This document shows positions 377-18,818 of a stretch of DNA of 64,000 nucleotides, in pieces. A program made the position numbers and the translations under genes. The notes under the pieces are model-generated. The model saw only the letters and a program-made list of their open reading frames with translations. It ran no database searches and was not told the DNA's origin. How positions within the stretch are numbered: the stretch's first letter is position 1; each line of letters starts with the position of its first letter. Source of the DNA: an uncultured Flavobacteriaceae bacterium (GTDB lineage Bacteria; Bacteroidota; Bacteroidia; Flavobacteriales; Flavobacteriaceae); assembly GCA_947494715.1 (NCBI GenBank), contig CANLWG010000017.1, forward strand, positions 1 through 64,000, in the 5' to 3' direction.

Positions 377-1456
377 TTACCGTTTGGACAACAATTCAAA
401 AAGAGGGCGATTGATGTAATAGTTTGCGGTGCCTATCCGTTCCTTTTGGAGCAGTCCATCATCAGCCAACTTGTTAAGGTAGTTTGCGGCGGTCAATCTG
501 GAAACTCCCAGATCATTTATTACAAATTCAATTTTTGTATACGGATGTTTGAACAGGTTGTTCAATAAATCCTGACTATAGAATTTATAATTGGACCTAA
601 GTTTGTTTTTGTACTCTTGCATCAAAGTCCTTATTTGTAGAATCAGGGCAATCGTGTTTTTTGAAGTTTGTTCCACTCCTTTGATCATGAACAAAAGCCA
701 TTCTTCCCAATTGTTTTCGTCCCTTACTTCCTGTAGCAGTCTATAGTAATCCGCTTTATGCTCGATAATATAGCTACTTAAATATAAAATGGGAAGTGAT
801 TGTAATTTTTCCAGTATTAGGTATAGGATGTTGATAATTCTGCCAGTGCGCCCATTGCCATCATAAAAAGGATGTATGCTCTCAAATTGAAAATGAATAA
901 TGGCCATTTTAACTATGGGGTCATAATCACTCTTTTCAGAATCATTGATGAATTGCTCAAGATTCTTCATTAGTCTTTGGATGTCGGTTATATTTTGGGG
1001 CGGGGTATAGACGGTTTCACCTGTTTTTGCATTTTTTAAGGTTGTTCCAGTTAGCTTTCGGAATCCGGCATTGTTCTTCTCCAATACTTCTTGAATGGCC
1101 AGTATGGTGCGATTGGTCAGTACCTTTTCATTTGAAATTAATGAAAAACCCTGTTTCAGGGCATGTATATAATTTTGCACCTCCTTGGCATCAATGGGTT
1201 TAAAAACACCAAGATTTAATTCTGACTTGTATAAATCATCGTGAGTGGTAATTATGTTTTCTATTGCAGAACTGTCCTTTGCTTCTTGAAGTGCCAGGGT
1301 ATTGATAAGGATATTCTGATTGGGAATGGTAGATGCAATACCTTTTAGCTCGGCCAAAGCTGCGTGTGCAGAAGGAAGGCTTTTGAGCACCGCTTTTGTT
1401 TCTACATCGAAGGCCACGGGCAGTTCAGGTAGTATATAATTAATATTTTGAGACAC
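377..1456 (-). CDS. Fic family protein (AMPylase-like) with C-terminal winged helix
   Basis: 359 residues. The Fic core motif HPFYDGNGRTGR is intact, with the catalytic His near residue 195, so it is predicted to transfer AMP (or another NMP) to a protein hydroxyl. An inhibitory-helix motif SSAIEN ([S/T]xxxE[G/N]) lies near residues 62-67, N-terminal to the Fic core, the class II arrangement in which the helix blocks ATP. The last ~70 residues (FVINDLGVSRLTAANYLNKLADDGLL) look like a winged-helix DNA-binding domain. The start is GTG; no in-frame ATG fits upstream. It is transcribed alone. Repeated TGTATAGA half-sites sit at its promoter, so self-regulation through the winged helix is likely (inference). 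The target protein is unknown. Confidence 0.9.
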   Translation of the reverse strand: MSQNINYILPELPVAFDVETKAVLKSLPSAHAALAELKGIASTIPNQNILINTLALQEAKDSSAIENIITTHDDLYKSELNLGVFKPIDAKEVQNYIHALKQGFSLISNEKVLTNRTILAIQEVLEKNNAGFRKLTGTTLKNAKTGETVYTPPQNITDIQRLMKNLEQFINDSEKSDYDPIVKMAIIHFQFESIHPFYDGNGRTGRIINILYLILEKLQSLPILYLSSYIIEHKADYYRLLQEVRDENNWEEWLLFMIKGVEQTSKNTIALILQIRTLMQEYKNKLRSNYKFYSQDLLNNLFKHPYTKIEFVINDLGVSRLTAANYLNKLADDGLLQKERIGTANYYINRPLFELLSKR

Positions 1457-2335: not shown

Positions 2336-2812
2336 ATGCCAAGAAGAAAATACAGACTTAGAAAAGAAGAAGGAAATTTTATCAACTTGGATAAAGAAGA
2401 GGTATCCTTAAACATACCAGTAACGGAAACCGGTATGACCTACCAACAAGTTGAGAGAATTTCTAGTGAAGATATTAATGCAATATTGGTCCGAATCCAG
2501 GGTGGCCCAAATAATACTCCTGATGATCCGGTGATAGATTATATTTCTGAAAATCTATCTTTCAAAGAAATTAACATAGAAAAGAGGAGATTTGAAAGGG
2601 ACCCCTATCTACTAGTTGTTATTTTTAACAACATGGAGGAGCTAACAACAGATGACATTGAATGCTTTAAGCAAGAGGTGGAAGATTCACGACATTATTC
2701 CGAAGCGGAAGAAAAAGTTAGATACAAGAAAAGATGTCAAAAAATTGGAATTGATCCTTTTCAACCAAGAGAACAAGATGGGGATGTTATAGGTGGAAAT
2801 CAAAAGAAGTAA
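2336..2812 (+). CDS. Hypothetical charged cytoplasmic protein
   Basis: 158 residues with no signal peptide or membrane segment, starting MPRRKYRLRKEEGNFINLDK. The protein is rich in E, K, R and D. A predicted alpha/beta middle section contains INAILVRIQGG and YLLVVIFNNM. No family is recognised. Its 3' end overlaps the kinase gene by 20 bp, which suggests translational coupling and a role tied to the two-component pair. Confidence 0.65.
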   Translation: MPRRKYRLRKEEGNFINLDKEEVSLNIPVTETGMTYQQVERISSEDINAILVRIQGGPNNTPDDPVIDYISENLSFKEINIEKRRFERDPYLLVVIFNNMEELTTDDIECFKQEVEDSRHYSEAEEKVRYKKRCQKIGIDPFQPREQDGDVIGGNQKK

Positions 2813-4574
2813 AATAGCATTATTGAGTATCCTTTTTTTAAGTGTATTTTTTTTGTTCTCTCAAAAAAAGGATACTCTTCTTTTATTCAAGTTTGCGGAG
2901 TTATTAGAGGTGGGGTCCTATAAGGAGTTAATTAACGAATACCGGTTAATTCATAAAGATATGGACCTTAAAAGCGATGCAGAGTATGACTTGTTAATTG
3001 GCTCGGCTTTTCAAGGTTTGAACATGGCTGATTCAGCCTTTTTTTTCTTCACCAAAGCAAAGAAAGAATTTCTTAATCATGGTAGATTAAAAAAAGTTGC
3101 TTTGGTGAATTTGGAAATCAGTGATTTATTGGATGGCCAAGGTAATTTGGAAATGGACAATTCCTATTTTAAGGAATTTTGGAACTATGCCATTACAAAC
3201 AATGATACCATGCTACTTGCTAAAGGTTACAATCACATGGGGCGTACTTCTTTTATGGATAAAAACCCCTACATCCCAATGAACCACTTCAAAAAGGCTT
3301 TTGAATTATTTACAAGTGCACATAAGAAAAAAGGGGCCATTACAAACTTGATGAATATAGGGGTTGTTTACTCCAATCGATTAAAAAACAATGACTCAGC
3401 CAGGTATCATTATTTTCGAGCTTTGGAACTATTGGAAGAAAATAAGAGACATGAGGATTTTACTAACCTTCACCATGATTTATTGAATAATATAGGGAAT
3501 AGCTATCGCCGATCTAAGAATTATTCAGAGGCATTAAATTATTACAAAATAGCTGAAACACTAAATGTCAAAAAGTATAAAGTAAAAACCAAAAAAATAC
3601 TTTATGGGAATATGGACTTGACATATTATTACCTGAAGGATTATAGAAATGCTTATAAATACCTCTTCAAATACGATTCGATTAAGGACGTAATAAACCT
3701 AACAAATCAGAACACAACCATATCGGATATTAAGGAAAAGTATAATAATGAGAAACTGAGAGCTGATAATCTCGAAATAGAGGCAAAAAGAGTTCAAAAT
3801 AGGAACCTTCTGCTAGTATCTATTGGATTATTATTAGTTGGAACAGGTATTGCTATTCTATTTCAAAAAAACACAACTAAAAAACGGCTACTTGCGGAGC
3901 AAGAAGTTATATTGAAACAACAGAGAGTTGAGAACTTATTAAAAGAACAAGAACTGGTAAGTATTGATTCTATGATTGAAGGTCAGGAAAAAGAGCGGCA
4001 AAAAGTGGCCAACGAATTGCACGATGACCTAGGAAGTTTAATGGCGACTATCAAATTGCATTTTGACAATGCTACGGTCAGTAAACAGGACTCAGCACTG
4101 CGAAATGCCCAAAAACTCTTGGAAGATGCATACCTAAAAATCCGTGGAATGGCCCACAGCAAGAACTCCGGTGTAATGAGCAATCAAGGACTGTTGCCTG
4201 CCATCGAGAAGATGGCCAAGGCAATTTCCGAATCCAATTCCCTGCAAGTGTTCGTGGAGGATTTTGGTTTGGGTGAACGTATGGAAAATTCTTTGGAACT
4301 TTCGATATTTAGAATGATACAAGAATTGGTGGCCAATGTGATAAAACATGCAGAAGCCACAAAAGTGAACATTCAGTTGACCCAACATGAGGATAGCTTG
4401 AATCTTATTGTAGAAGATGACGGTAAGGGATTCGACCGTTCACAATTGGATAAGGAATCCAATCGTATGGGGCTTACCAACATCGAAAAACGCGTGGAGC
4501 ATTTGGAGGGAAACTTTACTGTGGATAGCGTGATTGGAAGGGGAACATCAATCTTAATTGATATTCCAGTATGA
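2793..4574 (+). CDS. TPR-containing sensor histidine kinase (NarL/LuxR partner type)
   Basis: 593 residues. Order: N-terminal hydrophobic helix or signal anchor (about 7-24), a run of TPR-like helical repeats (about 30-310), a coiled stretch, one membrane segment (LLLVSIGLLLVGTGIAILF, about 345-363), a second coil, a HisKA_3 dimerisation helix with the phospho-acceptor in KVANELHDDLGSL, and an HATPase with LVANVIKHAEATKV, EDDGKGFD and MGLTNIEKRV. Start is GTG, with an in-frame TAG directly before it. It overlaps the response regulator by ATGA, so the two are a pair. The periplasmic TPRs suggest it senses a protein or peptide state rather than a small ligand (inference). Confidence 0.9.
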   Translation: MEIKRSKIALLSILFLSVFFLFSQKKDTLLLFKFAELLEVGSYKELINEYRLIHKDMDLKSDAEYDLLIGSAFQGLNMADSAFFFFTKAKKEFLNHGRLKKVALVNLEISDLLDGQGNLEMDNSYFKEFWNYAITNNDTMLLAKGYNHMGRTSFMDKNPYIPMNHFKKAFELFTSAHKKKGAITNLMNIGVVYSNRLKNNDSARYHYFRALELLEENKRHEDFTNLHHDLLNNIGNSYRRSKNYSEALNYYKIAETLNVKKYKVKTKKILYGNMDLTYYYLKDYRNAYKYLFKYDSIKDVINLTNQNTTISDIKEKYNNEKLRADNLEIEAKRVQNRNLLLVSIGLLLVGTGIAILFQKNTTKKRLLAEQEVILKQQRVENLLKEQELVSIDSMIEGQEKERQKVANELHDDLGSLMATIKLHFDNATVSKQDSALRNAQKLLEDAYLKIRGMAHSKNSGVMSNQGLLPAIEKMAKAISESNSLQVFVEDFGLGERMENSLELSIFRMIQELVANVIKHAEATKVNIQLTQHEDSLNLIVEDDGKGFDRSQLDKESNRMGLTNIEKRVEHLEGNFTVDSVIGRGTSILIDIPV

Positions 4575-5185
4575 TTACGGTAGCCATAGCTGAAGACCAT
4601 CAAGCACTGATTGATGGTATCCGGTCTTATATTAAATATGAGGATGATATTAGCATCATCGGCCATGCCAACAACGGTGAAGAACTGCTCAAATTGGTCC
4701 GCTTAAAACAGCCCAAAGTGGTACTCTGCGATATCCGTATGCCCAAATTAGATGGTATTGAGGCGACTAAAACCATTCTCAAAGAGCTGCCCCATACCAA
4801 GGTGATAGCTTTTACCATGTTTGACCGGGAAGAAGCCGTAAAACAAATGCTGGCCGCAGGTGCACATGGTTATATTCTCAAAAACAGTAGTTTGGAAGTC
4901 GTGTTGGAGGCTATACGCGAGGTAACCTGTGGAAAAACCTACTACGATAAAAAAATACATCAGCCCAACGCTGAAAAAAACAGTACCAAAAGTGTACTCT
5001 CTTCTCGCGAGCGAGAAATTCTTCAACTTATAGCTAAAGGCAGAACTTCTCACCAAATTGCCGATGAATTGTTTATTGGGAAAAGCACGGTAGATACCCA
5101 CCGTAAAAACATGATTCGAAAATTAGGGCTCAGTGGTGCAGGAGAACTGTTGCGTTATGCGGTGGAGAAGAAGTATGAGTTTTAG
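4571..5185 (+). CDS. LuxR/NarL-type response regulator
   Basis: 204 residues. The receiver domain has the acidic pair E8-D9, the phosphorylatable Asp54 in VVLCDIRMP, a conserved Thr in AFTMF and the Lys in YILKNS. The C-terminal LuxR helix-turn-helix reads LSSREREILQLIAKGRTSHQIADELFIGKSTVDTHRKN (key residues R, E, I, G, S, T, V, H). It overlaps the kinase gene by 4 bp and is followed by a hairpin terminator. The two nearly matching palindromes before 1920 and 5339 are plausible targets. Confidence 0.93.
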   Translation: MITVAIAEDHQALIDGIRSYIKYEDDISIIGHANNGEELLKLVRLKQPKVVLCDIRMPKLDGIEATKTILKELPHTKVIAFTMFDREEAVKQMLAAGAHGYILKNSSLEVVLEAIREVTCGKTYYDKKIHQPNAEKNSTKSVLSSREREILQLIAKGRTSHQIADELFIGKSTVDTHRKNMIRKLGLSGAGELLRYAVEKKYEF

Positions 5186-5198
5186 CCCCTGTTTATTT

Positions 5199-5236
5199 AA
5201 GTAGTCTATCCAAAGGATTAGATACTTCTTTTTTAT
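5199..5236 (+). terminator. Rho-independent terminator after the response regulator
   Basis: Imperfect stem AAGTAGTCTATCC / GGATTAGATACTT with an AAA loop, followed by CTTTTTT. It lies 14 bp after the response-regulator stop and ends the operon before the next palindrome-preceded operon. Confidence 0.7.
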
Positions 5237-5265
5237 TCCAATTAATTCAAAATATACAGCTTAGA

Positions 5266-5295
5266 AGAAAAATCCCTACTAATGGGGATTTTTCT
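5266..5295. promoter_or_regulatory. Second palindromic regulatory element
   Basis: AGAAAAATCCC (5266-5276), spacer TACTAAT, then GGGGATTTTTCT (5284-5295). Core and spacing to the start codon (43 bp to 5339) match the element at 1837-1873. It is a candidate site for the adjacent LuxR-type regulator and would control the two-gene secreted-protein/protease operon. Confidence 0.5.
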
Positions 5296-5338
5296 GCACT
5301 GAATTTTGTTGAAAATTAGCATAAACAAATAAACAATT

Positions 5339-6877
5339 ATGAAAATGACTAAAGCAATAACCAGCCTTTTCATGCTTTCAATGATGTTTGCAATTGCTCA
5401 GACCAAAATTGACGAAACCTTGCAAAGTATACCGATAAGGGAAAATCTAAATGTCTATTTGGGAGATGATAGCCTTAGATTTACTATTGATAGTGGCGAG
5501 GATCAGAATTTGCCAAAAAATAGCTTTTTAGTTGCTAAAAGGGTGAATAGTATAAAACTTACTTCTCAGTTTTTCAACCCTTTGAAGTATCGGATAGTAT
5601 TGCAACAAGAGGAAAAAGATGATCCTGTATTTGTAGCTGCGGATGAGGTTCTTAATTCTTCTATTTATCCTACATTGAGTCAAGTCGGTTTTGGTAATAT
5701 TATTGGTGCATTGAAAAACCAATCAGACATGTCAATTGCTAGTAAAATAACAACCAATAATAAAGTAAAACTAAAAAAGAAAGAGCAGAGATTAATTAAT
5801 TACAGTATAACCAATCCCGAGCTCGCTGAGCTATATGCTTTCTTAAAAATATTTGACCCGAAATTTGAAACAAAGGCAGAAAATGAAAAATATTTGAAGG
5901 CAATGCAAGACTTTAGCATTGCTGATGTTGTTTCTGAAATCGAACAGTCAACAAAAGCTCTTTTTGCCAATTTGTTGGCAATCAGTTCATTTAAAGAAAA
6001 AGAATTAAAAATTGCTACTAATGATGGGCTGCTAAAAACAATTGAAGCAGACACTATCCTTTTAGAAAAGGATTACATCAAACTCGAAACTCAACTAATA
6101 GATCTTAAAAATCTACTGTCTAATAAACATACCAGTTTGGCTGTTATTATTGACCAAAAACTTAAAATAATAAGGAATCAAATTTCCGATGTCAAAAAAA
6201 TAACAACTAGTTCAATATCTCACTACGAAGTATTAAAAAGTCCTTTTTTAAAGCTAAAGGAAAACAAAAATCGAAAGCCAAATGAGATTTTGAATGAAAT
6301 GTTTCTTGTAGATGTTGATATTCCGGCTAGAAGAAAATTGAATGAGGTGGTACTAAAGCTGGTGAGCTATGAATTTGACAATAATTCAAAAACTTTAACT
6401 GAAAAGGAAACAAAGATTTACACGATTGTTTTTCGCAGATACAGTTTTCTGGTCCCCAGAGTATCTTCAGGCGTTCTCTACACGGATTTAAGCTTTCCGA
6501 CTTTTGGTACGACCTTGGATGAGGAAGGAAACACGGTGATATCTCAAGGTGAGGATAATGATAGTGAGCTAAGTATAGCTACTTACTTAGATTTTCATTT
6601 TAACTCCCTAAATGAACTTCCTATTTTTTTGCAATTGGGTGTTGGCCCTTCCAGAGAGAAACCACTTTTGTTTACTGGAATAGGCATTGATTTAATTGAT
6701 AGAATCAATCTTTCTTTTGGTGGAATATTTACCTGGTTCCCAGAGCTCAACGATTTAAACATTGGAGATCAAGTCTCAGGAACTACAGAGATTAACGATG
6801 ATATTACCTTCCGGTTTTCAGGAAAACCGAGATTTTACTTGGGTCTTAGTGTTGATTTATCAAAAAAAGGAAAATGA
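5339..6877 (+). CDS. Secreted/outer-membrane hypothetical protein
   Basis: 512 residues with a clear signal peptide (start MKMTKAITSLFMLSMMFAIA, cleavage likely after AQT). The middle (about 120-330) is helical and lysine/glutamate-rich. The last ~140 residues alternate polar and hydrophobic residues, with short strands such as LFTGIGIDLIDRINLSFGGIFTW, RFSGKPRFYLGLSVDLSKK (key: aromatic belt, Gly turns), like the end of a small beta-barrel. No family is recognised. The stop overlaps the next start (ATGA), so it is co-translated with the lipoprotein protease and may be its partner or anchor. Confidence 0.6.
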   Translation: MKMTKAITSLFMLSMMFAIAQTKIDETLQSIPIRENLNVYLGDDSLRFTIDSGEDQNLPKNSFLVAKRVNSIKLTSQFFNPLKYRIVLQQEEKDDPVFVAADEVLNSSIYPTLSQVGFGNIIGALKNQSDMSIASKITTNNKVKLKKKEQRLINYSITNPELAELYAFLKIFDPKFETKAENEKYLKAMQDFSIADVVSEIEQSTKALFANLLAISSFKEKELKIATNDGLLKTIEADTILLEKDYIKLETQLIDLKNLLSNKHTSLAVIIDQKLKIIRNQISDVKKITTSSISHYEVLKSPFLKLKENKNRKPNEILNEMFLVDVDIPARRKLNEVVLKLVSYEFDNNSKTLTEKETKIYTIVFRRYSFLVPRVSSGVLYTDLSFPTFGTTLDEEGNTVISQGEDNDSELSIATYLDFHFNSLNELPIFLQLGVGPSREKPLLFTGIGIDLIDRINLSFGGIFTWFPELNDLNIGDQVSGTTEINDDITFRFSGKPRFYLGLSVDLSKKGK

Positions 6878-8112
6878 AAAAACTATTACTTGTGTTAAGT
6901 GTTATCCTTTTTACTTCCTGCAATAACTCTTGTTCCGAGAAGAAAGAGATTTCGAACGATAGCTTTGAAGAGTTTTTGGGTAATCTAGAAAAGAGCGGTA
7001 ATCTTTATCAAATTAATGCGGCTTCAGAATCGAGTGAATCAATCAAAACAGGTTTACAGCTGTTAATGGAGCAATTCGGACCATTAAATGAAGACAAAGT
7101 AAAAACATTGTTTCAGTTGGAAATAGAATCCTTAAAAAGGCTGGATACAATCACTTTAGGTAAGACATCTGAAGTTTTCTCTGGGGATACAACCAATGTG
7201 AGAGGAAGAAGATGTGGAACATATGATTTATCGGATTCAACAGCTTTAAAAGCATTTTCAGATGGTAGCAGAATGGTTATGCCAAACATTTTGCCCAGAA
7301 CTTATTTTGTGCCAGTCGAATTTCATGTTGTTAATAGCGATAAAAACGCATGGACCCCAACACTGTCCGATTTAAAGGAACAGATTTCGATCCTAAATCA
7401 GTATTTTTTAGAAATTAAGATTATATTCTATATTTCTAAAACAACCACACACAGCAATAAAAAATGGGCCAAAGCATTTCGAACAAGCAAGGGCAACACC
7501 ATCTTTGACAACAACTATAGGGATATGGTCAATAACATTAAATGGGATAACCCTAGTGCCATGCACGTTTATATCAATCAAAATATTAAAGTTCTTGGAC
7601 AAGCCACTTTACCTTTTGAAAATCCTGAATATCAAACAAAATTTGACCATATTCTTATTTCGACACATTCTCTGAAAAACCGGATTGATCCAATTTCGGG
7701 CTATCAAATGCAAGGAAAAACCCTTGTGCATGAGGTTGGACATTTTTTAGGGTTATTGCACACATTTCATAGCAAATCGAATAAATGGGACTGTGATAAT
7801 TTGAATTATAATGGCTGTAATTCGCCTGGAGATTACGTGAGGGATACACCTCCTCAACGTTACTGTCATTTTCATGGCTGCGGAAAATGTATTAATAATA
7901 TGGGGAAAGATTGCGAAAACGAGGCTGATTGTCTTACCTGTAATACCTGTGCTTTTGACGTTACTCCCGATGATGTGAATAACTTAATGGGCTATAACCC
8001 AGATGATTGTATTGATAGTTTTACTCCTGATCAGTACGCTAGAATGCAGAAATACTTTTTGAGAAATAGAGGTTATCTAATTTCACAAGTTGAAAATCTG
8101 TTTTCAATATAG
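6874..8112 (+). CDS. M43-type (pappalysin-like) zinc metalloprotease lipoprotein
   Basis: 412 residues. The lipobox is LFTSC at residues 12-16, so the protein is lipid-anchored outside the cytoplasm. The metzincin zinc site HEVGHFLGLLH lies near residue 286. The Met-turn region NNLMGYNPDDC is followed by FTPDQYARM, which is typical of the M43 pappalysin/ulilysin family. Many cysteines lie between the zinc site and the Met-turn (CDNLNYNGC, CHFHGCGKC, CENEADC), which suggests disulfides. It is expressed with the preceding secreted protein under the palindrome at 5266-5295. The substrate is unknown. Confidence 0.88.
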   Translation: MKKLLLVLSVILFTSCNNSCSEKKEISNDSFEEFLGNLEKSGNLYQINAASESSESIKTGLQLLMEQFGPLNEDKVKTLFQLEIESLKRLDTITLGKTSEVFSGDTTNVRGRRCGTYDLSDSTALKAFSDGSRMVMPNILPRTYFVPVEFHVVNSDKNAWTPTLSDLKEQISILNQYFLEIKIIFYISKTTTHSNKKWAKAFRTSKGNTIFDNNYRDMVNNIKWDNPSAMHVYINQNIKVLGQATLPFENPEYQTKFDHILISTHSLKNRIDPISGYQMQGKTLVHEVGHFLGLLHTFHSKSNKWDCDNLNYNGCNSPGDYVRDTPPQRYCHFHGCGKCINNMGKDCENEADCLTCNTCAFDVTPDDVNNLMGYNPDDCIDSFTPDQYARMQKYFLRNRGYLISQVENLFSI

Positions 8113-8243: not shown

Positions 8244-8264
8244 CTCACCGAATAGGTGACTTTT
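8244..8264. repeat. Island repeat, copy 2 (21 bp)
   Basis: Exact copy of the sequence at 1690-1710, with four further matching bases (TTAT) shared only with copy 3. It lies between the convergent protease and HipT genes, so it divides the island into two segments. Confidence 0.75.
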
Positions 8265-11586: not shown

Positions 11587-13095
11587 TTAGGCAAGCTTTT
11601 CGATTATGTCATTATAAACTTCTTCACCAAGTTTTGGTCCACCAGGATGATCTATATAGACAGACTTGTAAGTTATAAAATGTTCTAGTAAAATTTCTTT
11701 GAACTCCTCTTCTTTGTAGTATAAGATAAAGTCAATGCAGAAAAACCCTGAGGCTATGTCTGTAGAATCATATACAAAATCGAATAAGATATTTTCTCCA
11801 ATAATAGCTCTGCCAACCCAAATAAATTTGGGGTAATTTTTTAAAACAACAGATTTTTTGACCATTACTTCGTAATCACTTTTAGATACTTGCTTTTTAT
11901 ACTCGTTACTTTCTATTAGAAAAATATCCCATTCTATTTCTAATTGAAACAAATTCGTTTCAAAAAAGATTTGATCTACAAGGCTAATTTTATCAAAAAC
12001 ATCCTGAAACTTAATTCTAATTTTTCGATACATTGGAATAATTACCGAGTGTATTTTAGCAGTAATTGAATCTCCGTTAGAATCTGACCACGCAGTCTGA
12101 ATATTTTCATTGCCGGGAAAGCTCATTTTGGCGAAAGGTCCGATTTGATCATCGTGGGTATAAAACTTTTCAATGTTATCCGCTGTTAAAGAAATTTCTT
12201 GGGATTTTTCTTTTTCCGTACTAAAATCCGAATATCCATTAATTGTAATTAAATGTCCCACCCCATCGTCAAATTTGAGAAATAAAAGAATAGGCAATCC
12301 TGCTTTATTATAGGCGTAGATGAGTCTTTTGGCCAATTGAACGCTGCTCTCGAAGCGAGTTGAAATTATGTACTCAGAAACCAGGCCTGTAGACTCTATA
12401 GCTTTGCAAATTTGAGTAATGTCAAGACCAGGATTAGGAAAAGTTCTGCCATAGTTTAAAAAAAGGTTACCCCCTCGCTTTGTGATTTCGCTGGGTGAAG
12501 GCAAATCTGTATCGAAAAGCTTTGAGGTTTTATGGAATGCACTCCAAATTGCCACTGATGCACAAGCCGCTACCACTGTGTCTTGTTCTTGATAAACTAA
12601 GGATTCCAGCTCTAAAACTCTACCAAAAAGGTTGACCTTATATTGCCTACAACTGGGGTAGTATCTCTTAATACCATCTTCTCTAATAGCGTAGGTTTTG
12701 AGCAATGTTGGGCCGATAATACTGTCGGGTAATGGCTTAACAACTATGTATCCTAGATAATTATCATTTAGAAAACTAGATTTCGAATTATACAGCTCTT
12801 TCTCAAACTTGACTTTCTCAAAATTTGCCTTAAAAAAATGCACTCTTTTACAGTGCCTGTCGTAATCTTTGAAACAAATTGAATAATAATGAGAGTAGTC
12901 AATTAGGTAGGCTTTCGATACGTAGGGTTCTTCAACTAAAATAGTTTTAGCCCCTATACCGGTGGTTCCCAAATAACTTTTAAAGTATTTGAAATGGTTC
13001 CTTTCTTCTAGTAAATTTATGGGTATTTGATTGTTATCCAGAGCAATCTTTAAGTTCTTGTCCGAATAATCAAATATTTGATAAGCCGTTACCAA
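11587..13095 (-). CDS. Papain-like (C39-type) cysteine peptidase, unknown role
   Basis: 502 residues, no signal peptide. A papain-like centre is visible: Q171 and C178 in YQEQDTVVAACASVAIW, followed by a helix and PSPSEIT, then H281 and N286 in VGHLITINGY. The N-terminal ~160 residues contain LGYIVVKPLPDSIIGPTLL and RQYKVNLFGR, a conserved-looking lead domain. The C-terminal 200 residues are not recognised. It is the last gene of a tight operon led by a sigma-like protein; the gap to the previous gene is 2 bp. I infer a cytoplasmic protease effector or processing enzyme of a regulated defence-like module; no substrate is known. Confidence 0.75.
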   Translation of the reverse strand: MVTAYQIFDYSDKNLKIALDNNQIPINLLEERNHFKYFKSYLGTTGIGAKTILVEEPYVSKAYLIDYSHYYSICFKDYDRHCKRVHFFKANFEKVKFEKELYNSKSSFLNDNYLGYIVVKPLPDSIIGPTLLKTYAIREDGIKRYYPSCRQYKVNLFGRVLELESLVYQEQDTVVAACASVAIWSAFHKTSKLFDTDLPSPSEITKRGGNLFLNYGRTFPNPGLDITQICKAIESTGLVSEYIISTRFESSVQLAKRLIYAYNKAGLPILLFLKFDDGVGHLITINGYSDFSTEKEKSQEISLTADNIEKFYTHDDQIGPFAKMSFPGNENIQTAWSDSNGDSITAKIHSVIIPMYRKIRIKFQDVFDKISLVDQIFFETNLFQLEIEWDIFLIESNEYKKQVSKSDYEVMVKKSVVLKNYPKFIWVGRAIIGENILFDFVYDSTDIASGFFCIDFILYYKEEEFKEILLEHFITYKSVYIDHPGGPKLGEEVYNDIIEKLA

Positions 13096-13097
13096 AA

Positions 13098-13379
13098 TTA
13101 TCGTCCGGCCTTGAAAGACATTGATTCAACATCAGATTTAAAACTTTCTCTGATTCTGTCATTGGAAGCTTTGACCTGCTCTAGTGACTTTATTAAATCC
13201 GCTTCGCTAATTTTATTAATTTGATTTTTTGCCGTGAGGAAGTTACTAGTTTGCGACTTTGCCATAAATAAAGGAAAGATGATGAATAGTATTAAATCAT
13301 AACACTTAAATCTTACTTTTCGTATAAGAAAAGCATCTTTGTTCATAGCGAATATAGACATTAGAAAATATAAATTCAA
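13098..13379 (-). CDS. Small membrane-anchored or exported protein
   Basis: 93 residues, not recognised. A basic N-terminus (LIRKVRFK) is followed by a hydrophobic stretch CYDLILFIIFPLFM and then AKSQ, so the first ~40 residues look like a signal peptide or anchor. The rest is a charged helix (ISEADLIKSLEQVKASNDRI). A shorter start at the Met before AKSQ (55 residues) is possible; I keep the longer one because it starts 8 bp after the previous stop, as elsewhere in this tight operon. It lies 2 bp before the papain-like peptidase gene and could be its substrate or partner. Confidence 0.55.
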   Translation of the reverse strand: MNLYFLMSIFAMNKDAFLIRKVRFKCYDLILFIIFPLFMAKSQTSNFLTAKNQINKISEADLIKSLEQVKASNDRIRESFKSDVESMSFKAGR

Positions 13380-13387
13380 AATTTATT

Positions 13388-13678
13388 TTATTTGTTCTTC
13401 TTGTTTTTAATTTTTTTGATCTCTTTATCCAAGTCAAAATCTTTATTTTTCTTTTTGGCTGCCATTAGAAATCTATCGGATTTTAACTGATTCTCTTCCG
13501 ATGGTTTCTCTTGATTCTCTAACAACTTCCCAATACGTTCTAACCCTTGTTCAACAAGCAAATTAGGGTTCACTCCCAGTTGTTCCAACTTGTTGTCTAA
13601 ATCTTCCGTGGAATAAGTACTTCTTTCAGATTCTTCGAAAATCCTGTTTAATATTTTACCTGTTACCTTTTTTGTCAT
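13388..13678 (-). CDS. Small charged helical protein in the sigma-like operon
   Basis: 96 residues. A run of short helices (LNRIFEESERST, LDNKLEQLGVNPNLLVEQGLERIGKLL) is followed by a very basic tail (KKIKNKKNK). No family is recognised. It starts 2 bp after the stop of the sigma-like gene. Size, charge and position suit an anti-sigma-like or inhibitor protein, but this is inference only. Confidence 0.65.
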   Translation of the reverse strand: MTKKVTGKILNRIFEESERSTYSTEDLDNKLEQLGVNPNLLVEQGLERIGKLLENQEKPSEENQLKSDRFLMAAKKKNKDFDLDKEIKKIKNKKNK

Positions 13679-13680
13679 AA

Positions 13681-14241
13681 CTATTGTTTCAATGAACCAA
13701 ATATTTGGTTCGCATTCATTTTTTCTATTCGTGATTTTAGTTTACGTATTAAATTGTTGTATTCATTGTTGCTTATGTCCAGTTCTTCGCAGATTTCCTT
13801 TCGTTTTGCTCCATCATAAACCAAAAGAAATAATTTAAATAAGATGGATTCCTTATCCAACTGTTTCTTCATCATTTCCAGGACTTGAGCTGCATTCAAA
13901 TTTTCTTCTGTTGAATAATTCTCCGGATGATGAAGTTCCTGGATGTCTTTGGCGTCACTTGCCTTTACTTCTTTATTCCGAGCCAAATTGGCAACCATGC
14001 CCTTTACAACATGAAATTTGAGATAGCTCAATAAATCAGCTTTTTTAGGATTCCAATTCCATTTTTCCGTTAGGACTGCTGCTATGGCTTCATTGGCAAT
14101 TTCCTCTGGAGAATAACCTTTGATTCCTTTTTCATAGAGCAAATTCCAAAATTTAAATCTTGAATAAGCATAGTACGTCAAGTCCTTAATTATGTATTCC
14201 CAGTCCTGTGTTTCAAATAGTTTTCTCTTCTCTGAATCCAT
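13681..14241 (-). CDS. Sigma-70-like factor
   Basis: 186 residues. The region-2-like part reads YSPEEIANEAIAAVLTEKW, then LLSYLKFHVVKGMVANLAR (about 45-95). The C-terminal HTH is region-4-like: AKRKEICEELDISNNEYNNLIRKLKSRIEKM. There is a linker of ~40 residues between them. It is the first gene of the four-gene operon ending with the papain-like peptidase and is divergent from the ubiquitin-like operon; the shared intergenic region is 140 bp. It may activate one or both operons. Confidence 0.8.
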   Translation of the reverse strand: MDSEKRKLFETQDWEYIIKDLTYYAYSRFKFWNLLYEKGIKGYSPEEIANEAIAAVLTEKWNWNPKKADLLSYLKFHVVKGMVANLARNKEVKASDAKDIQELHHPENYSTEENLNAAQVLEMMKKQLDKESILFKLFLLVYDGAKRKEICEELDISNNEYNNLIRKLKSRIEKMNANQIFGSLKQ

Positions 14242-14381: not shown

Positions 14382-14681
14382 ATGACAGACAATTTAGAAA
14401 TTATCGATTTAGAAGAGTTTTCAAAGGACAATAAAAAGCCCCCTAAACGCAAGCGTTATAGAATAAAGGTGGACCGCGATAAATTCGTTGTGGAAGAGGA
14501 ATCTAAGACTGGACGTGAGATTTTGGAACTGGCTGGGAAAATACCGGCAACTCAATATCAGTTGAGACAAAAGTTCCGAGGAGGTACCGTCAAGAAAATT
14601 GGCTTGGACGACAAGGTCGATTTCACAGAACCGGGTATTGAAAAATTCATCACCATTCCCCTAGATCAAACTGAAGGCTAA
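14382..14681 (+). CDS. Ubiquitin-like (multi-ubiquitin domain) protein
   Basis: 99 residues. After a charged N-terminal linker (about 1-22), one beta-grasp domain follows: YRIKVDRDKFVVEEE, the helix GREILELAGK, then YQLRQKFRGG and GLDDKVDFTEPGIEKFITIPL. This matches the bacterial multi-ubiquitin domain family, here with one unit. The protein ends ...DQTEG, so the C-terminal Gly is already exposed and no protease step is needed to free it. It starts an operon with E2-like, JAB-E1 and DUF6527-like genes and overlaps the next gene by 1 bp (TAATG). It should be adenylated by the E1 domain and attached to a target. Confidence 0.88.
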   Translation: MTDNLEIIDLEEFSKDNKKPPKRKRYRIKVDRDKFVVEEESKTGREILELAGKIPATQYQLRQKFRGGTVKKIGLDDKVDFTEPGIEKFITIPLDQTEG

Positions 14682-15103
14682 TGGAAACCAGACATGAATT
14701 TGATTTATCCAATGATGACCAAGGGTTTTTGGAGGCTCTTGGTCTTCCTTGGGAAACAGTAAGGGAGCGAGGCCAGCTTTGGCTGCTGATCCACAATTTT
14801 GAGCCTCCCCATGGCTATGCCCAAAAACAGGTTACAATAGCCATTAATATTCCATCAGCCTATCCTCGTGCCCAATTGGACATGGTATATTTTTTCCCCG
14901 CTATAGTGAGGTTAGACGGACATCGAATAGGTGCGTTAGCAACGTTGCACCTTGATGGCAAAACTTGGCAGCGATGGTCCAGACACCGAACTGCAAAAAA
15001 CCCATGGCGTGCAGGTGTAGATAATATTTCAACCCACTTTGCACTTATCGAGAATTGGTTGCAACGAGAATTTAATAAAATCCCCTATGAAGTACCAGCT
15101 TAG
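14681..15103 (+). CDS. E2-like protein (prokaryotic E2 family E type), without cysteine
   Basis: 140 residues. The fold signals of bacterial E2 family E are present: QLWLLIHNFEPPHGYAQKQVTIAINIPSAYPRAQLDMVYFFP (key PPHGY, YP, FFP), then LDGKTWQRWSRHR and WRAGVDNISTHFALIENWL. The conjugating position around the TWQRWSRH segment has no Cys, and there is no cysteine anywhere in the protein, so a thioester on this protein is impossible. Candidate hydroxyl or histidine acceptors are T, S, H and W-flanking residues near 93-100. It overlaps the JAB-E1 gene by 17 bp. Confidence 0.85.
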   Translation: METRHEFDLSNDDQGFLEALGLPWETVRERGQLWLLIHNFEPPHGYAQKQVTIAINIPSAYPRAQLDMVYFFPAIVRLDGHRIGALATLHLDGKTWQRWSRHRTAKNPWRAGVDNISTHFALIENWLQREFNKIPYEVPA

Positions 15104-16463
15104 GATTTCAGGCAAGCATGCCGATCAAATAAAAGGACATCTTTTTCCCGGAGACAATATGGAGGCAGTGGCCATAGGTTTGTGTGGGCATCATCAAGGT
15201 AAGGAATCGATTATTCTCTGTGTACACGAGGTCTTCAATGTTCCATATGATCAATGCCAACGCTCACCGGATTATGTGAACTGGAAAACAGAATCAATAA
15301 TTCCATTAATTGAAAAAGCGGCCAAATTAAAGTTAAGTGTCGTTAAGTTCCATAGTCATCCTGATGGATATAATAGTTTTTCAGAATTGGATGATACTTC
15401 CGACCGGAAGTTTTTCCCCTCCATTTACGGTTGGATAGATGGTGAACAGCCCCATGGAAGTGTAGTGGCCTTACCCACCGGAGATTTTTTCGGCAGGATA
15501 ATAGGGATGGATAATAGATTTGAGGATTTCGAACGGATAATGGTTGCTGGGGAAACTATTGGCTTATTCAGCCGAACTAAAGTGAAACTGAATCAAGACA
15601 TGGCTATTAGAAATATTCAATCCTTCGGTCCTGGCACAACTGAACTGCTTAAGAATATGGCCGTTGGAATAGTCGGTGCTTCAGGGACCGGGTCACCACT
15701 AATTGAGCAATTGGTACGTTTGGGCGTAGGCAAAATTGTCATTATAGATCCTGACATTGTAGAGTTAAAAAATCTAAACAGGATAGTGAATACAAACAAA
15801 AAGCATGCAGAAGCAAGGTCTTATAAGGTTGATGTTTTGGCTAAGTCAATCAAACAAATTGGTTTTGAGACCGAGGTGGTAACCTTCACCGAAAATCTGT
15901 ATGATTCGATGGAGGCCATCCGTGCACTTATTGGTTGTGATGTCATTTTTGGCTGTGTTGACAGCATTGATGGAAGACATTTGCTAAATCAAATCTCGAC
16001 ATTTTACTGTATACCATATTTTGATATAGGAATAAAGTTGGAAGCGGACGGACGTGGAGGCATTAATCAAATCAATGGTGCCGTTCATTATATCCAGCCT
16101 GGAGGATCTTCACTACTTTCAAGAGGAGTGTACAGCATACAAGGTTTGGAAGCCGCAACATTGAAACGTGAAAATAATGATGAATACGAAAAAAGGCTTA
16201 AGGAAAAGTACATCGTCAATGTCAATGTTGAAAGTCCGGCGGTGATAAGTGTGAACATGTTTGTATCCAGTTTTTGTGTAAATGACTTTTTGAATAGGAT
16301 TCATCCATACAAGGGATATGAGCCCGGAGAAAGAATGGTAACTTGGTTATCTCTTTCGGAGGACATGATTTTCCACGATAGTGACGGGGTTCCAGATGAA
16401 TATCTCTCCAAAAAGGTTGGGCTTGGTGATCAAAAACCATTTTTAGATATACCAGGGTTATGA
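15087..16463 (+). CDS. JAB peptidase-E1 (ThiF-like) fusion
   Basis: 458 residues from the chosen ATG (a frame 48 bp longer would sit inside the E2 gene). The N-terminal JAB domain has its full zinc set: E26 in NMEAVAIGLCG, H89 and H91 in FHSHPDG, and S99 and D102 in FSELD. The E1 adenylation domain (about 165-458) shows VGIVGASGTGSPLIEQLVRL (Gly loop), DPDIVELKNLNR and GCVDSIDGR. Where related E1s usually have PGGxCLxCxG, this one has PGGSSLLSRG (S342, S345). It should adenylate the Ubl, and the JAB part should remove it. Overlap with the next gene is ATGA. Confidence 0.9.
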   Translation: MKYQLRISGKHADQIKGHLFPGDNMEAVAIGLCGHHQGKESIILCVHEVFNVPYDQCQRSPDYVNWKTESIIPLIEKAAKLKLSVVKFHSHPDGYNSFSELDDTSDRKFFPSIYGWIDGEQPHGSVVALPTGDFFGRIIGMDNRFEDFERIMVAGETIGLFSRTKVKLNQDMAIRNIQSFGPGTTELLKNMAVGIVGASGTGSPLIEQLVRLGVGKIVIIDPDIVELKNLNRIVNTNKKHAEARSYKVDVLAKSIKQIGFETEVVTFTENLYDSMEAIRALIGCDVIFGCVDSIDGRHLLNQISTFYCIPYFDIGIKLEADGRGGINQINGAVHYIQPGGSSLLSRGVYSIQGLEAATLKRENNDEYEKRLKEKYIVNVNVESPAVISVNMFVSSFCVNDFLNRIHPYKGYEPGERMVTWLSLSEDMIFHDSDGVPDEYLSKKVGLGDQKPFLDIPGL

Positions 16464-16792
16464 GGTCATTACAGAATATAATCAGAAAAATTTCAACCCA
16501 TTTTCCGTGGAACAAATATACCTCTAGATATGTTGATGATATTCCCGATAATCCAGTTCCCCGAGTACTTTATATAATTGGAAGTATTGAGGATTCATGG
16601 TTATTGTTCTTTAAATGTCCTTGTGGATGCGGTAAGGATATCCATTTAAATTTATTGGAGGATGACTCGCCGCAATGGAGGTATAGTAAGAATGGTAGGA
16701 GAATTAGCATTGCCCCATCGGTGCATGGGATAAAAGGCTGTAAAAGTCATTTTTGGATTAAAAAGGGGAGGGTTATGTGGTGCTGTTACTAA
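16460..16792 (+). CDS. DUF6527-like metal-binding protein
   Basis: 110 residues. A clustered Cys set, KCPCGCGKDIHLNL (C53, C55, C57), and the C-terminal APSVHGIKGCKSHFWIKKGRVMWC (C94, H97, C108) match the DUF6527 pattern that recurs beside multi-ubiquitin/E2/E1 operons. A metal site is likely. The PSVH segment (S87, H89) could form part of a hydrolytic centre. It is the fourth gene of the operon and overlaps JAB-E1 by 4 bp. It may be a second Ubl-specific protease or a target adaptor; I cannot decide between these. Confidence 0.75.
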   Translation: MRSLQNIIRKISTHFPWNKYTSRYVDDIPDNPVPRVLYIIGSIEDSWLLFFKCPCGCGKDIHLNLLEDDSPQWRYSKNGRRISIAPSVHGIKGCKSHFWIKKGRVMWCCY

Positions 16793-16933: not shown

Positions 16934-18184
16934 TTAATTTCTCGACTTCTCCCTGCTTTCCTTGGCCTCAATTCCAGCCAATTTCTCCATTAACACCTTC
17001 ATATCCTCCTCCACCTTCGAATCAATAATCTTAGCATAATGCTGGGTAGTCCGCAAATTTTTATGTCCCAACATTTTGCCAACGGTCTCAATAGGAACGC
17101 CATTGGTCAAGGTAACCGTAGTAGCAAAAGTATGACGGGCTAGGTGGGTAGTAAGGTTCTTATTAATGTCGCATCGGTCGGCAATTTCTTTAAGATAGGC
17201 GTTCGACTTTTGATTACTCAACACTGGAATCACGCAATTCTTGTTGACCACCTTAGGGTGGTCTTTATATTTCTCAATAATGGCAACAGCTGTCGGCAAT
17301 AGTGGAATCGTAAAACCCGTATCCGTTTTAGAACGTTTCGATTTAATGTAGTAGCCACCTTCTCCATTTTGATAAATTTCAACAGGAGTTAAGGTTTGAA
17401 TATCGATATAAGCCAAACCCGTAAAGCAACATAGCACAAACATATCACGAACGATGCCTAAGCGTTCTCCTTCGATTTCTTTATCGATAAGCTTCTGGAG
17501 TTCCTCTTTTGTTAGAAACTCTCGTTCTACGGTTTTAAATTGCACTTTGTAGTTATAAAAAGGGTCTTTCGCAAGCCAGTCATTGGCAACGGCGATACGA
17601 ACAATCTTTTTAAAGTTGTTAACGTACTTCAGGGCGGAGTTGTGATTACAGGCTTTTGTCACCTTCAAAAAGTATTCAAAGCCTTTGATGAATTTTAAAT
17701 CGATGTCCTTGACCGGAATATCATTTTTACGATATTCAGACTTTACATATTCGGCAACATGGTTTCTGGTAGTAAAATACCGCTTCCAAGTACCTAGCGC
17801 GAATTCAACACCGACTAATTTTTCCATTTGTTGATTATGTTCGTCAAAGAGTTGAAGCAGCATTTTTTGTTTTTCACCTTTCCCCAGATAAAGATTTTTA
17901 ATATCCAATGAGGTAAATGATTGATCTTCTTCCATAAGACGAGCATGAATCTTATTTATCTTGTTTCGAATACTGTCTAAATACGAATTCAATTGGTTGG
18001 TCGTTAGGTTCGTTCCCTTCATTTTCCCCGTCCGAGCATTCCATTTTTCAGGGTCAACCTTGCGCGAAATGCTCAATTCGCTTCTTCGTCCATTTACAGT
18101 TAAACGCAAGTATATCGGCACTTTCACATCTTTTTCGAAATGTTTTCCTTTGAGATAAAATAGCTGGGAGAAATTATTGTTCAT
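16934..18184 (-). CDS. Tyrosine recombinase (Bacteroidota CTn/ICE type)
   Basis: 416 residues from the Met in KMNNNFSQLFYLKG; a longer frame to 18250 adds a hydrophobic, unlikely N-terminus. An arm-binding domain (about 5-90) and a SAM-like core-binding domain are followed by the catalytic domain: HLARHTFATTV (His, Arg), GHKNLRTTQHYAKI (His, Tyr). The first Arg box reads CCFTGLAYIDI, without the usual Arg; integrases such as IntDOT of CTnDOT are known to lack it too. It is the only recombinase in the window, lies at the ssrA-proximal end of the island, and probably inserted it. Confidence 0.92.
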   Translation of the reverse strand: MNNNFSQLFYLKGKHFEKDVKVPIYLRLTVNGRRSELSISRKVDPEKWNARTGKMKGTNLTTNQLNSYLDSIRNKINKIHARLMEEDQSFTSLDIKNLYLGKGEKQKMLLQLFDEHNQQMEKLVGVEFALGTWKRYFTTRNHVAEYVKSEYRKNDIPVKDIDLKFIKGFEYFLKVTKACNHNSALKYVNNFKKIVRIAVANDWLAKDPFYNYKVQFKTVEREFLTKEELQKLIDKEIEGERLGIVRDMFVLCCFTGLAYIDIQTLTPVEIYQNGEGGYYIKSKRSKTDTGFTIPLLPTAVAIIEKYKDHPKVVNKNCVIPVLSNQKSNAYLKEIADRCDINKNLTTHLARHTFATTVTLTNGVPIETVGKMLGHKNLRTTQHYAKIIDSKVEEDMKVLMEKLAGIEAKESREKSRN

Positions 18185-18273
18185 TTTGGATGCCTTTAAG
18201 AGTGTAAATAAAGGTACAAAAAAGAAAAATATAAATTTTATAATTAACATATTATCAGTTAATTACAAGGAAA

Positions 18274-18323
18274 TCGGTGAGTGCTTTTGAAGATTAAAAA
18301 CGCTCACCGAATAGGTGACTTTT
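18274..18323. repeat. Island repeat, copy 3, with an inverted partner
   Basis: The 21-bp repeat lies at 18303-18323. TCGGTGAG (18274-18281) is the exact inverse of its first eight bases CTCACCGA (18303-18310). Copies 2 and 3 share 25 bases. It sits between the recombinase start and the ssrA terminator, where an attachment site would be expected. Confidence 0.65.
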
Positions 18324-18394: not shown

Positions 18395-18421
18395 TTTTGT
18401 GTTAATTTGGTGTTGTAAAAG

Positions 18422-18818
18422 TGGAGCCGGAGGGAGTCGAACCCTCGTCCAAACAAGCAATAACCATGCTTTCTACATGCTTAGTATCTGATTAGTTTTC
18501 GATGTACACCTGACCAGAAACTGCCCAATGTACACTTAGCTTCTTTAAGTTTTAGTGATATCGCCAAAGCAAACAACATCCTTATGTTGACTTTTCTGGT
18601 GCTCCTTAACGGGTCGCCATCAACAAGGGCTACCCAGGAACATCTCGCTTCTCCGCCTAGCGGAGACGAGGCTAAATCCTACTATAATTCGGATTAAGCG
18701 GCAAGAGCGTAATTATTATCGCCAATTAAAAGTGTGGAAAATGAGATTAACGAGCTGTATCCCAGCGCTCGGCATGCTTACATCGCCATTGGTCTCGCTG
18801 TCAAAACCGGTCGGCCCC
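18422..18818 (-). ncRNA. ssrA: tmRNA
   Basis: 397 nt. The 5' end GGGGCCGACCGGTTTTGACAG (21 bases; key GGGGCC and TTTGACAG) pairs through GGGGCC with GGCTCC at the 3' end. The T-arm reads GAGGGTTCGACTCCCTC. CCA is not encoded (A discriminator at 18422, then CTT). PK1 contains GCATGCCGAGCG. The tag ORF reads GDNNYALAA followed by TAA (complement of about 18696-18725), the flavobacterial tag with Asp instead of the common Glu in position 2. It rescues stalled ribosomes with SmpB. It is complete, with its own terminator, so the island next to it did not break it. Confidence 0.96.

Follow-up and report, generated by a model that had tools for sequence, protein, structure and literature searches.

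The window, by which we mean the whole 64,000-nt stretch of an uncultured Flavobacteriaceae genome analysed here, contains a cluster of four genes on the + strand in the order Ubl, E2-like protein, JAB-E1 fusion and DUF6527 protein. Every gene overlaps the next one, and the Ubl stop codon overlaps the E2 start codon (TAATG). Judged by its encoded sequences, the cluster is a Bub (bacterial ubiquitination-like) operon with a predicted function in protein conjugation; the system has already been described, and the locus adds one more Bub operon. The features discussed below are as follows:

14382-14681, + strand: Ubl gene (BubA-like), 99 aa; Pfam Multi_ubiq PF14452, 51.2 bits
14681-15103, + strand: E2-like gene (BubB-like), 140 aa; Pfam Prok-E2_E PF14462, 132.4 bits
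14978-14986, + strand: E2 codons Ser100-Arg101-His102, marked by conservation, with a putative nucleophile role
15087-16463, + strand: JAB-E1 fusion gene (BubCD-like), 458 aa from ATG; ThiF PF00899, 102.4 bits
16098-16127, + strand: E1 motif PGGSSLLSRG, residues 338-347, aligned with the CxxC of divergent relatives
16209-16211, + strand: E1 Tyr375 codon, an invariant loop tyrosine before the helix at 387
16460-16792, + strand: DUF6527 gene, the fourth gene, 110 aa; Pfam PF20137, 81.1 bits

We compared the window proteins with known Bub components by sequence and by structure models, whose input alignments were thinned and included the window (56 of 80 E2 rows and 43 of 81 E1 rows). The E2 model (pLDDT 90.7) finds Citrobacter BubB as its first match (9eae_C, E=6.5e-11, TM 0.86/0.93), to which the protein is also related by sequence (E=3.5e-26). 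For the E1 model (pLDDT 93.0), the list of fold matches opens with BubCD entries, and early matches thereafter include UBA5, MccB, PaaA, ThiF and MoeB; by sequence, the window E1 matches Citrobacter BubCD (9ea4_A; E=1.5e-74), the match covering residues 30-473 of an open reading frame of 474 aa. This frame is listed from TTG 15039, but homologue comparison favours the ATG at 15087 (458 aa) as the start; the S342 and C308 numbering of the preliminary description agrees with the ATG start and is used here. The JAB domain is fused N-terminally to the E1 with its metal residues kept: H89, H91, S99 and D102 are each present in 102/102 rows, at a Prok-JAB score of 24.1 bits, just below the cut-off of 25. 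Two cysteines of the JAB domain are also widely shared, C33 (15183-15185) in 97/101 and C57 (15255-15257) in 95/101 rows. Among PADLOC models, the 25 listed of the 31 families matching the window E1 are E1-E2 models, and the window E2, Ubl and DUF6527 proteins have no match at E<=1.

The system is sporadic in the phylum of the window: of 395 genomes sampled, nine, counting the window's own, encode PF14462; DUF6527 was tallied in 4/99 genomes of the phylum and in 1/14 control genomes. According to record titles, the Bub homologues in our sample come from several phyla. The E1 set comprises 103 rows: the window, eight loci from genomes of the phylum, a paralogue from the window's own genome (L002), 13 plasmid loci picked from 40 listed of 190 records, and the best 80 of 334 matches. 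Rows with a gap were dropped from the count of each column. As the set is drawn mostly from the top of the E1-similarity list, divergent members are under-represented. The E2 set has 100 rows, L002, L011 and L050 having no E2 match at E<=1e-5.

The preliminary description had stated that the E2-like protein lacks cysteine, and this is correct: the 140 residues encoded at 14681-15103 include none. At the cysteine frequency of 0.94% found in the 40 window open reading frames of at least 200 aa, a cysteine-free protein of this length has a probability of 0.27, so that the single sequence is unremarkable and the weight comes from the family pattern. The aligned domain is cysteine-free in 46/100 E2 homologues, and in no column does cysteine exceed 11/100, the maximum being at residue 87 (Ala in the window; Cys in 11/100 and Ser in 39/100). 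This supports the earlier claim that the E2 is unable to take part in a thioester relay. Ser100, His102, Trp109, Tyr61 and Met68 are identical in 100/100 homologues and Trp99 and Arg101 in 99/100 each; in the window, Ser100 and His102 stand in the motif QRWSRHR. The S-x-H pair is retained in the divergent E2 proteins of L008 and L010, encoded beside E1 proteins that do carry CxxC, so that the E2 serine appears independently of the E1 motif; the E2 of L011, missed by the profile, shows LSFHPY on visual inspection. From this pattern, we consider Ser100 and His102 a candidate active site of an E2 family without cysteine.

Profile alignment was rejected as a means of locating the canonical E2 cysteine in the Bub protein: the alignment to three canonical E2 proteins is not significant (probability 0.2%), and at that level it sets the canonical cysteine near residue 87, away from Ser100. 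A Foldseek comparison of the E2 model with canonical E2 proteins gave weak matches (best E 0.3) without a residue alignment, and a profile search for canonical E2 proteins in the PDB returned just two BubB sequences and one match at chance level.

The same proteins could be read in another way, with the E2 as an inactive RWD-like scaffold beside which the E1 transfers the Ubl directly to the target, with the adenylate or Tyr375 as the donor. The lack of cysteine would fit a scaffold, the conserved W-S-R-H could serve as a surface that binds the E1 or the Ubl, and Iyer et al. 2006, in the part of that paper concerned with these operons, judged such E2 proteins likely inactive (PMC1779556). The conservation of S100, H102 and W109 in 100/100 and of W99 and R101 in 99/100 homologues nevertheless exceeds, in our judgement, what is usual for a scaffold, and divergent members still have the S-x-H pair. 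We regard the scaffold reading, which the preliminary description had also raised, as unlikely and as the less likely account of this E2.

In the E1, the sequence PGGSSLLSRG, with SxxS where the preliminary description had expected CxxC, is confirmed at residues 338-347. Residue 342 is Ser in 87, Thr in 10, Cys in 3, Gly in 1 and Asp in 1 of 102 rows, and residue 345 is Ser in 62, Thr in 18, Asp in 9 and Cys in 3, with others in the remaining rows; as pairs, these positions read S/S in 60, S/T in 18 and CxxC in 3 of the 102. The three relatives with cysteine at both positions are L008, L010 and L011. All three have a second C-x(1-2)-C in their last 70 residues, as against 4 of the 99 other E1 proteins, a coincidence with a random-pairing chance of ~2e-4 (35/171700) if relatedness is ignored. 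E. coli MoeB (C172, C175 and C244, C247) and ThiF (C169, C172 and C240, C243) have two such cysteine pairs, which we take to bind zinc. As CxxC co-occurs with a second cysteine pair in the same way as in MoeB and ThiF, the expected CxxC is best read as a putative structural zinc site that would have been lost from the main Bub clade; the last 70 residues of the window E1 are free of any C-x(1-2)-C, and the four-cysteine site is absent. The motif PGGxCLxCxG, expected in the preliminary description, is thus better explained as a zinc site, and its loss is no direct clue to the nucleophile. L008, L010 and L011 themselves probably belong to a sister type and not to core Bub, because DUF6527 was not found in the genomes of L010 (G029) and L011 (G033).

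The preliminary description had also proposed that Ser342 of the SxxS motif bears the Ubl as an oxyester. A hydroxyl group is favoured at this position (Ser or Thr in 97/102), which lies just ahead of the loop bearing Tyr375. Against such a role, L015 has Gly and L004 has Asp at the position while both operons keep Y375 and the E2 S100, the position is less conserved than Y375, P384 or R346, and it turns to Cys only where a second cysteine pair exists, as in a zinc site. We therefore disfavour a Ser342 oxyester and consider it improbable.

Two E1 cysteines were considered and rejected as the Ubl nucleophile. C308, named earlier as a possible carrier, is cysteine in just 6/102 rows. C290 is cysteine in 99/103 rows, which would suit a thioester on a conserved E1 residue, but it belongs to a CVD motif common to UBA5 and aligned with the CTDN of ThiF, and it is replaced by Thr, Ser or Ala in 4/103. 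UBA5 and ThiF use a cysteine other than that of CVD or CTDN for catalysis. A thioester on C290, or on another conserved E1 cysteine of this kind, accordingly appears very improbable. A catalytic loop cysteine was also sought, and the window E1 has no cysteine of any kind from residue 309 to 396; across the E1 set, cysteine reaches 20% in no column between 346 and 396.

The loop region instead contains Tyr375, which is invariant in 101/101 rows and falls in a gap in the divergent L011. Other residues of the E1 are conserved to a similar degree (Pro384 in 101/101, Arg346 and Pro338 in 100/102 each). In the model, Tyr375 follows the CxxC-equivalent site and precedes the helix at 387, within the least confident part of the structure (block means of 67 and 74 for residues 371-390). 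ThiF and UBA5 carry their catalytic cysteine in a comparable loop. The link of ThiS to a cysteine of ThiF is noted in the passages of Iyer et al. on these enzymes (PMC1779556), and the catalytic Cys507 of ATG7 is described, in an excerpted source, as sitting on its crossover loop. We liken Tyr375 to the ThiF loop cysteine because of its position after the CxxC-equivalent site and before the helix, and not because of the hhalign alignment to ThiF, which is good early in the E1 domain and poor in the loop region.

A solved structure bears on the same residue. The PDB entry 9eav is titled as Citrobacter BubCD(D104A/Y370F)-BubB-BubA(155-229), and in its HMMER row two substitutions set it apart from the first BubCD row: Asp has become Ala in the JAB motif, and the residue aligned with Tyr375 is Phe in place of Tyr. 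The E1-E2-Ubl complex was thus solved with the Tyr375 equivalent removed. By analogy with the cysteine mutants of canonical E1 proteins, Y370F would fit the replacement of a catalytic residue, a motive that we infer from the construct.

Taken together, we propose with a probability of roughly 60% that the Ubl, once adenylated by the E1, is passed with the involvement of Tyr375 to Ser100 of the E2 as an oxyester, the SxxS motif not being the nucleophile. The pathway would comprise four steps: (i) the C-terminal Gly of the Ubl (...TEG) would be adenylated by the E1 domain, as homology supports; (ii) no E1 thioester would form, and Tyr375 would help to move the acyl group from AMP, as a catalyst or as a transient carrier; (iii) Ser100 of WSRH in the E2 would be the acceptor, giving a Ubl-Ser oxyester with the assistance of His102; (iv) the Ubl would go to its target, and JAB and DUF6527 would process or remove it. 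The E1 SxxS would be a relic of the lost structural zinc site and other than the nucleophile. Nucleophilic and structural roles look alike in residue conservation, and the covalent intermediate is what we infer from it. A phenolic ester is energetically near a thioester. More tentatively, and with less than even odds, Tyr375 might itself be the acyl carrier, so that a phenolic Ubl-Tyr ester would be followed by the Ubl-Ser100 ester and the pathway would proceed without a thioester.

The Ubl of the window is a single multiubiquitin/beta-grasp domain with the C-terminus ...PLDQTEG; it lacks the Gly-Gly end of canonical cascades and ends in TEG. In the sample, the Ubl is encoded in a separate open reading frame at 51/100 loci, the window included, and within the E2 frame at 49/100. 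The separate frames end in Gly in 39 cases (in TEG in 35/51, again with the window) and otherwise in 12, most of which have a few residues beyond a Gly. Where the Ubl is fused to the E2, 46/49 fit a simple pattern of D/E/N/T/Q followed by Gly ahead of the E2, and the remaining three read REG (two) and YG (one). These fused and extended ends would give indirect support to a processing step, and the window Ubl, ending in TEG, needs no trimming.

DUF6527 is encoded in the window and at all 93 loci L012-L104. Its putative zinc ligands C53, C57, C94 and H97 are conserved in 94/94 sequences. The residues P86-S87 are likewise invariant (94/94), and from this conservation Ser87 could be catalytic; a search among solved structures gave no meaningful match for DUF6527.

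The Citrobacter entries 9ea4, 9ea5, 9ea8, 9eae and 9eav presumably stem from the work of Ye et al. 2026 (Nat Struct Mol Biol, doi 10.1038/s41594-025-01696-1), with which we connect them by name and laboratory. That study is a mechanism paper that reportedly may describe oxyester intermediates, and it may already contain part or all of a Tyr-Ser oxyester relay. The window resembles Citrobacter Bub in the JAB-E1 fusion, which matches over nearly its full length, in the QRWSRHR of the E2, in PGGS(S/T)L replacing CxxC and in the invariant tyrosine; the two E1 proteins share 31% identity over the fold alignment. It differs in that its Ubl is one domain encoded separately from the E2, whereas the BubA construct 155-229 implies a longer Ubl protein. 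The Ubl match to Citrobacter BubA is weak (E=0.042), and other multiubiquitin proteins come ahead of it, 9cd2 being the best (E=4.9e-5).

Compared with further adenylating enzymes, the window E1 shares the adenylation fold of MoeB, ThiF and UBA5, while MoeB and ThiF have CxxC and a second cysteine pair and the window E1 has neither. Bil and type II CBASS (Cap2) are alike in being bacterial conjugation systems of the E1/E2 type, and both depend on cysteine thioesters. The operon corresponds to type 6e of Iyer, Burroughs and Aravind 2006 (PMC1779556), for which the relevant passages describe an E2-like domain without a conserved cysteine, inferred to be inactive. As there, we find a Cys-less E2/RWD-like protein, a JAB domain at the E1 N-terminus, a Ubl within the described range of one to three domains, and a small metal-binding protein with C-x(3)-C and, after ~36 residues, two more ligands. 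These last two read C-x(2)-H in the window as compared with the H-x(2)-C printed for type 6e in the same passages (PMC1779556), and the invariant Ser and His of the window family suggest a different view of the E2 from the inactive one given there. The excerpted text of a later study counts 544 Bub operons and states that protection of a host against phage is yet to be demonstrated for them (EMBO J 2026, PMC13373217).

Homologue alignment shows that the sampled family members as a rule lack cysteine at the E1 and E2 sites in question, which removes novelty at the locus and leaves the chemical inference intact. Of the earlier suggestion of a distinct chemical type of transfer, a non-thioester route thus stands as the best reading, and its novelty at this locus gives way to a known family trait. 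The comparison points to a clade of bacterial ubiquitin-like systems whose E1 and E2 do without the cysteines usually taken to define the relay, and it leaves Ser100/His102 of the E2 and Tyr375 of the E1 as the candidates for the reactive residues. If the oxyester relay is true, thioester chemistry is not essential for ubiquitin-like transfer. With the system itself known, what the locus adds is a verification and a corrected assignment of residues.

Several observations concern the surrounding DNA. A 21-base direct repeat lies on the + strand at 1690-1710, 8244-8264 and 18303-18323; the genome (72 contigs, searched with <=1 mismatch) holds exactly these three copies, all in the window. The last copy is located between a tyrosine recombinase gene (16934-18250, - strand) and a tmRNA gene (18421-18818, - strand), and the repeats resemble attachment sites that would bound two elements integrated in tandem at the tmRNA gene. 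The second interval (8.2-18.3 kb) would form a ~10-kb element with the Bub operon, a HipA-like gene and the integrase.

On the opposite strand beside the operon (11587-14241, - strand), a 186-aa protein, two small proteins and a 502-aa protein are encoded, the last having no Pfam or PADLOC match. The 186-aa protein has a weak match to sigma-70 region 4 (E=0.0074), and an iterated search found its relatives at 24 loci including the window, 23 of them on the - strand. Regulators of Bub named in the excerpted text of PMC13373217 are CapW, CapH+CapP and CapK+CapS; the 186-aa protein is unlike these and may be another Bub regulator. Further upstream, 2336-8112 (+ strand) holds genes for a histidine kinase, a response regulator, a 512-aa open reading frame and an M43-like metallopeptidase, and a SoFic-like Fic gene lies at 377-1456 (- strand; PADLOC 396.6 bits), followed by a 158-aa open reading frame.
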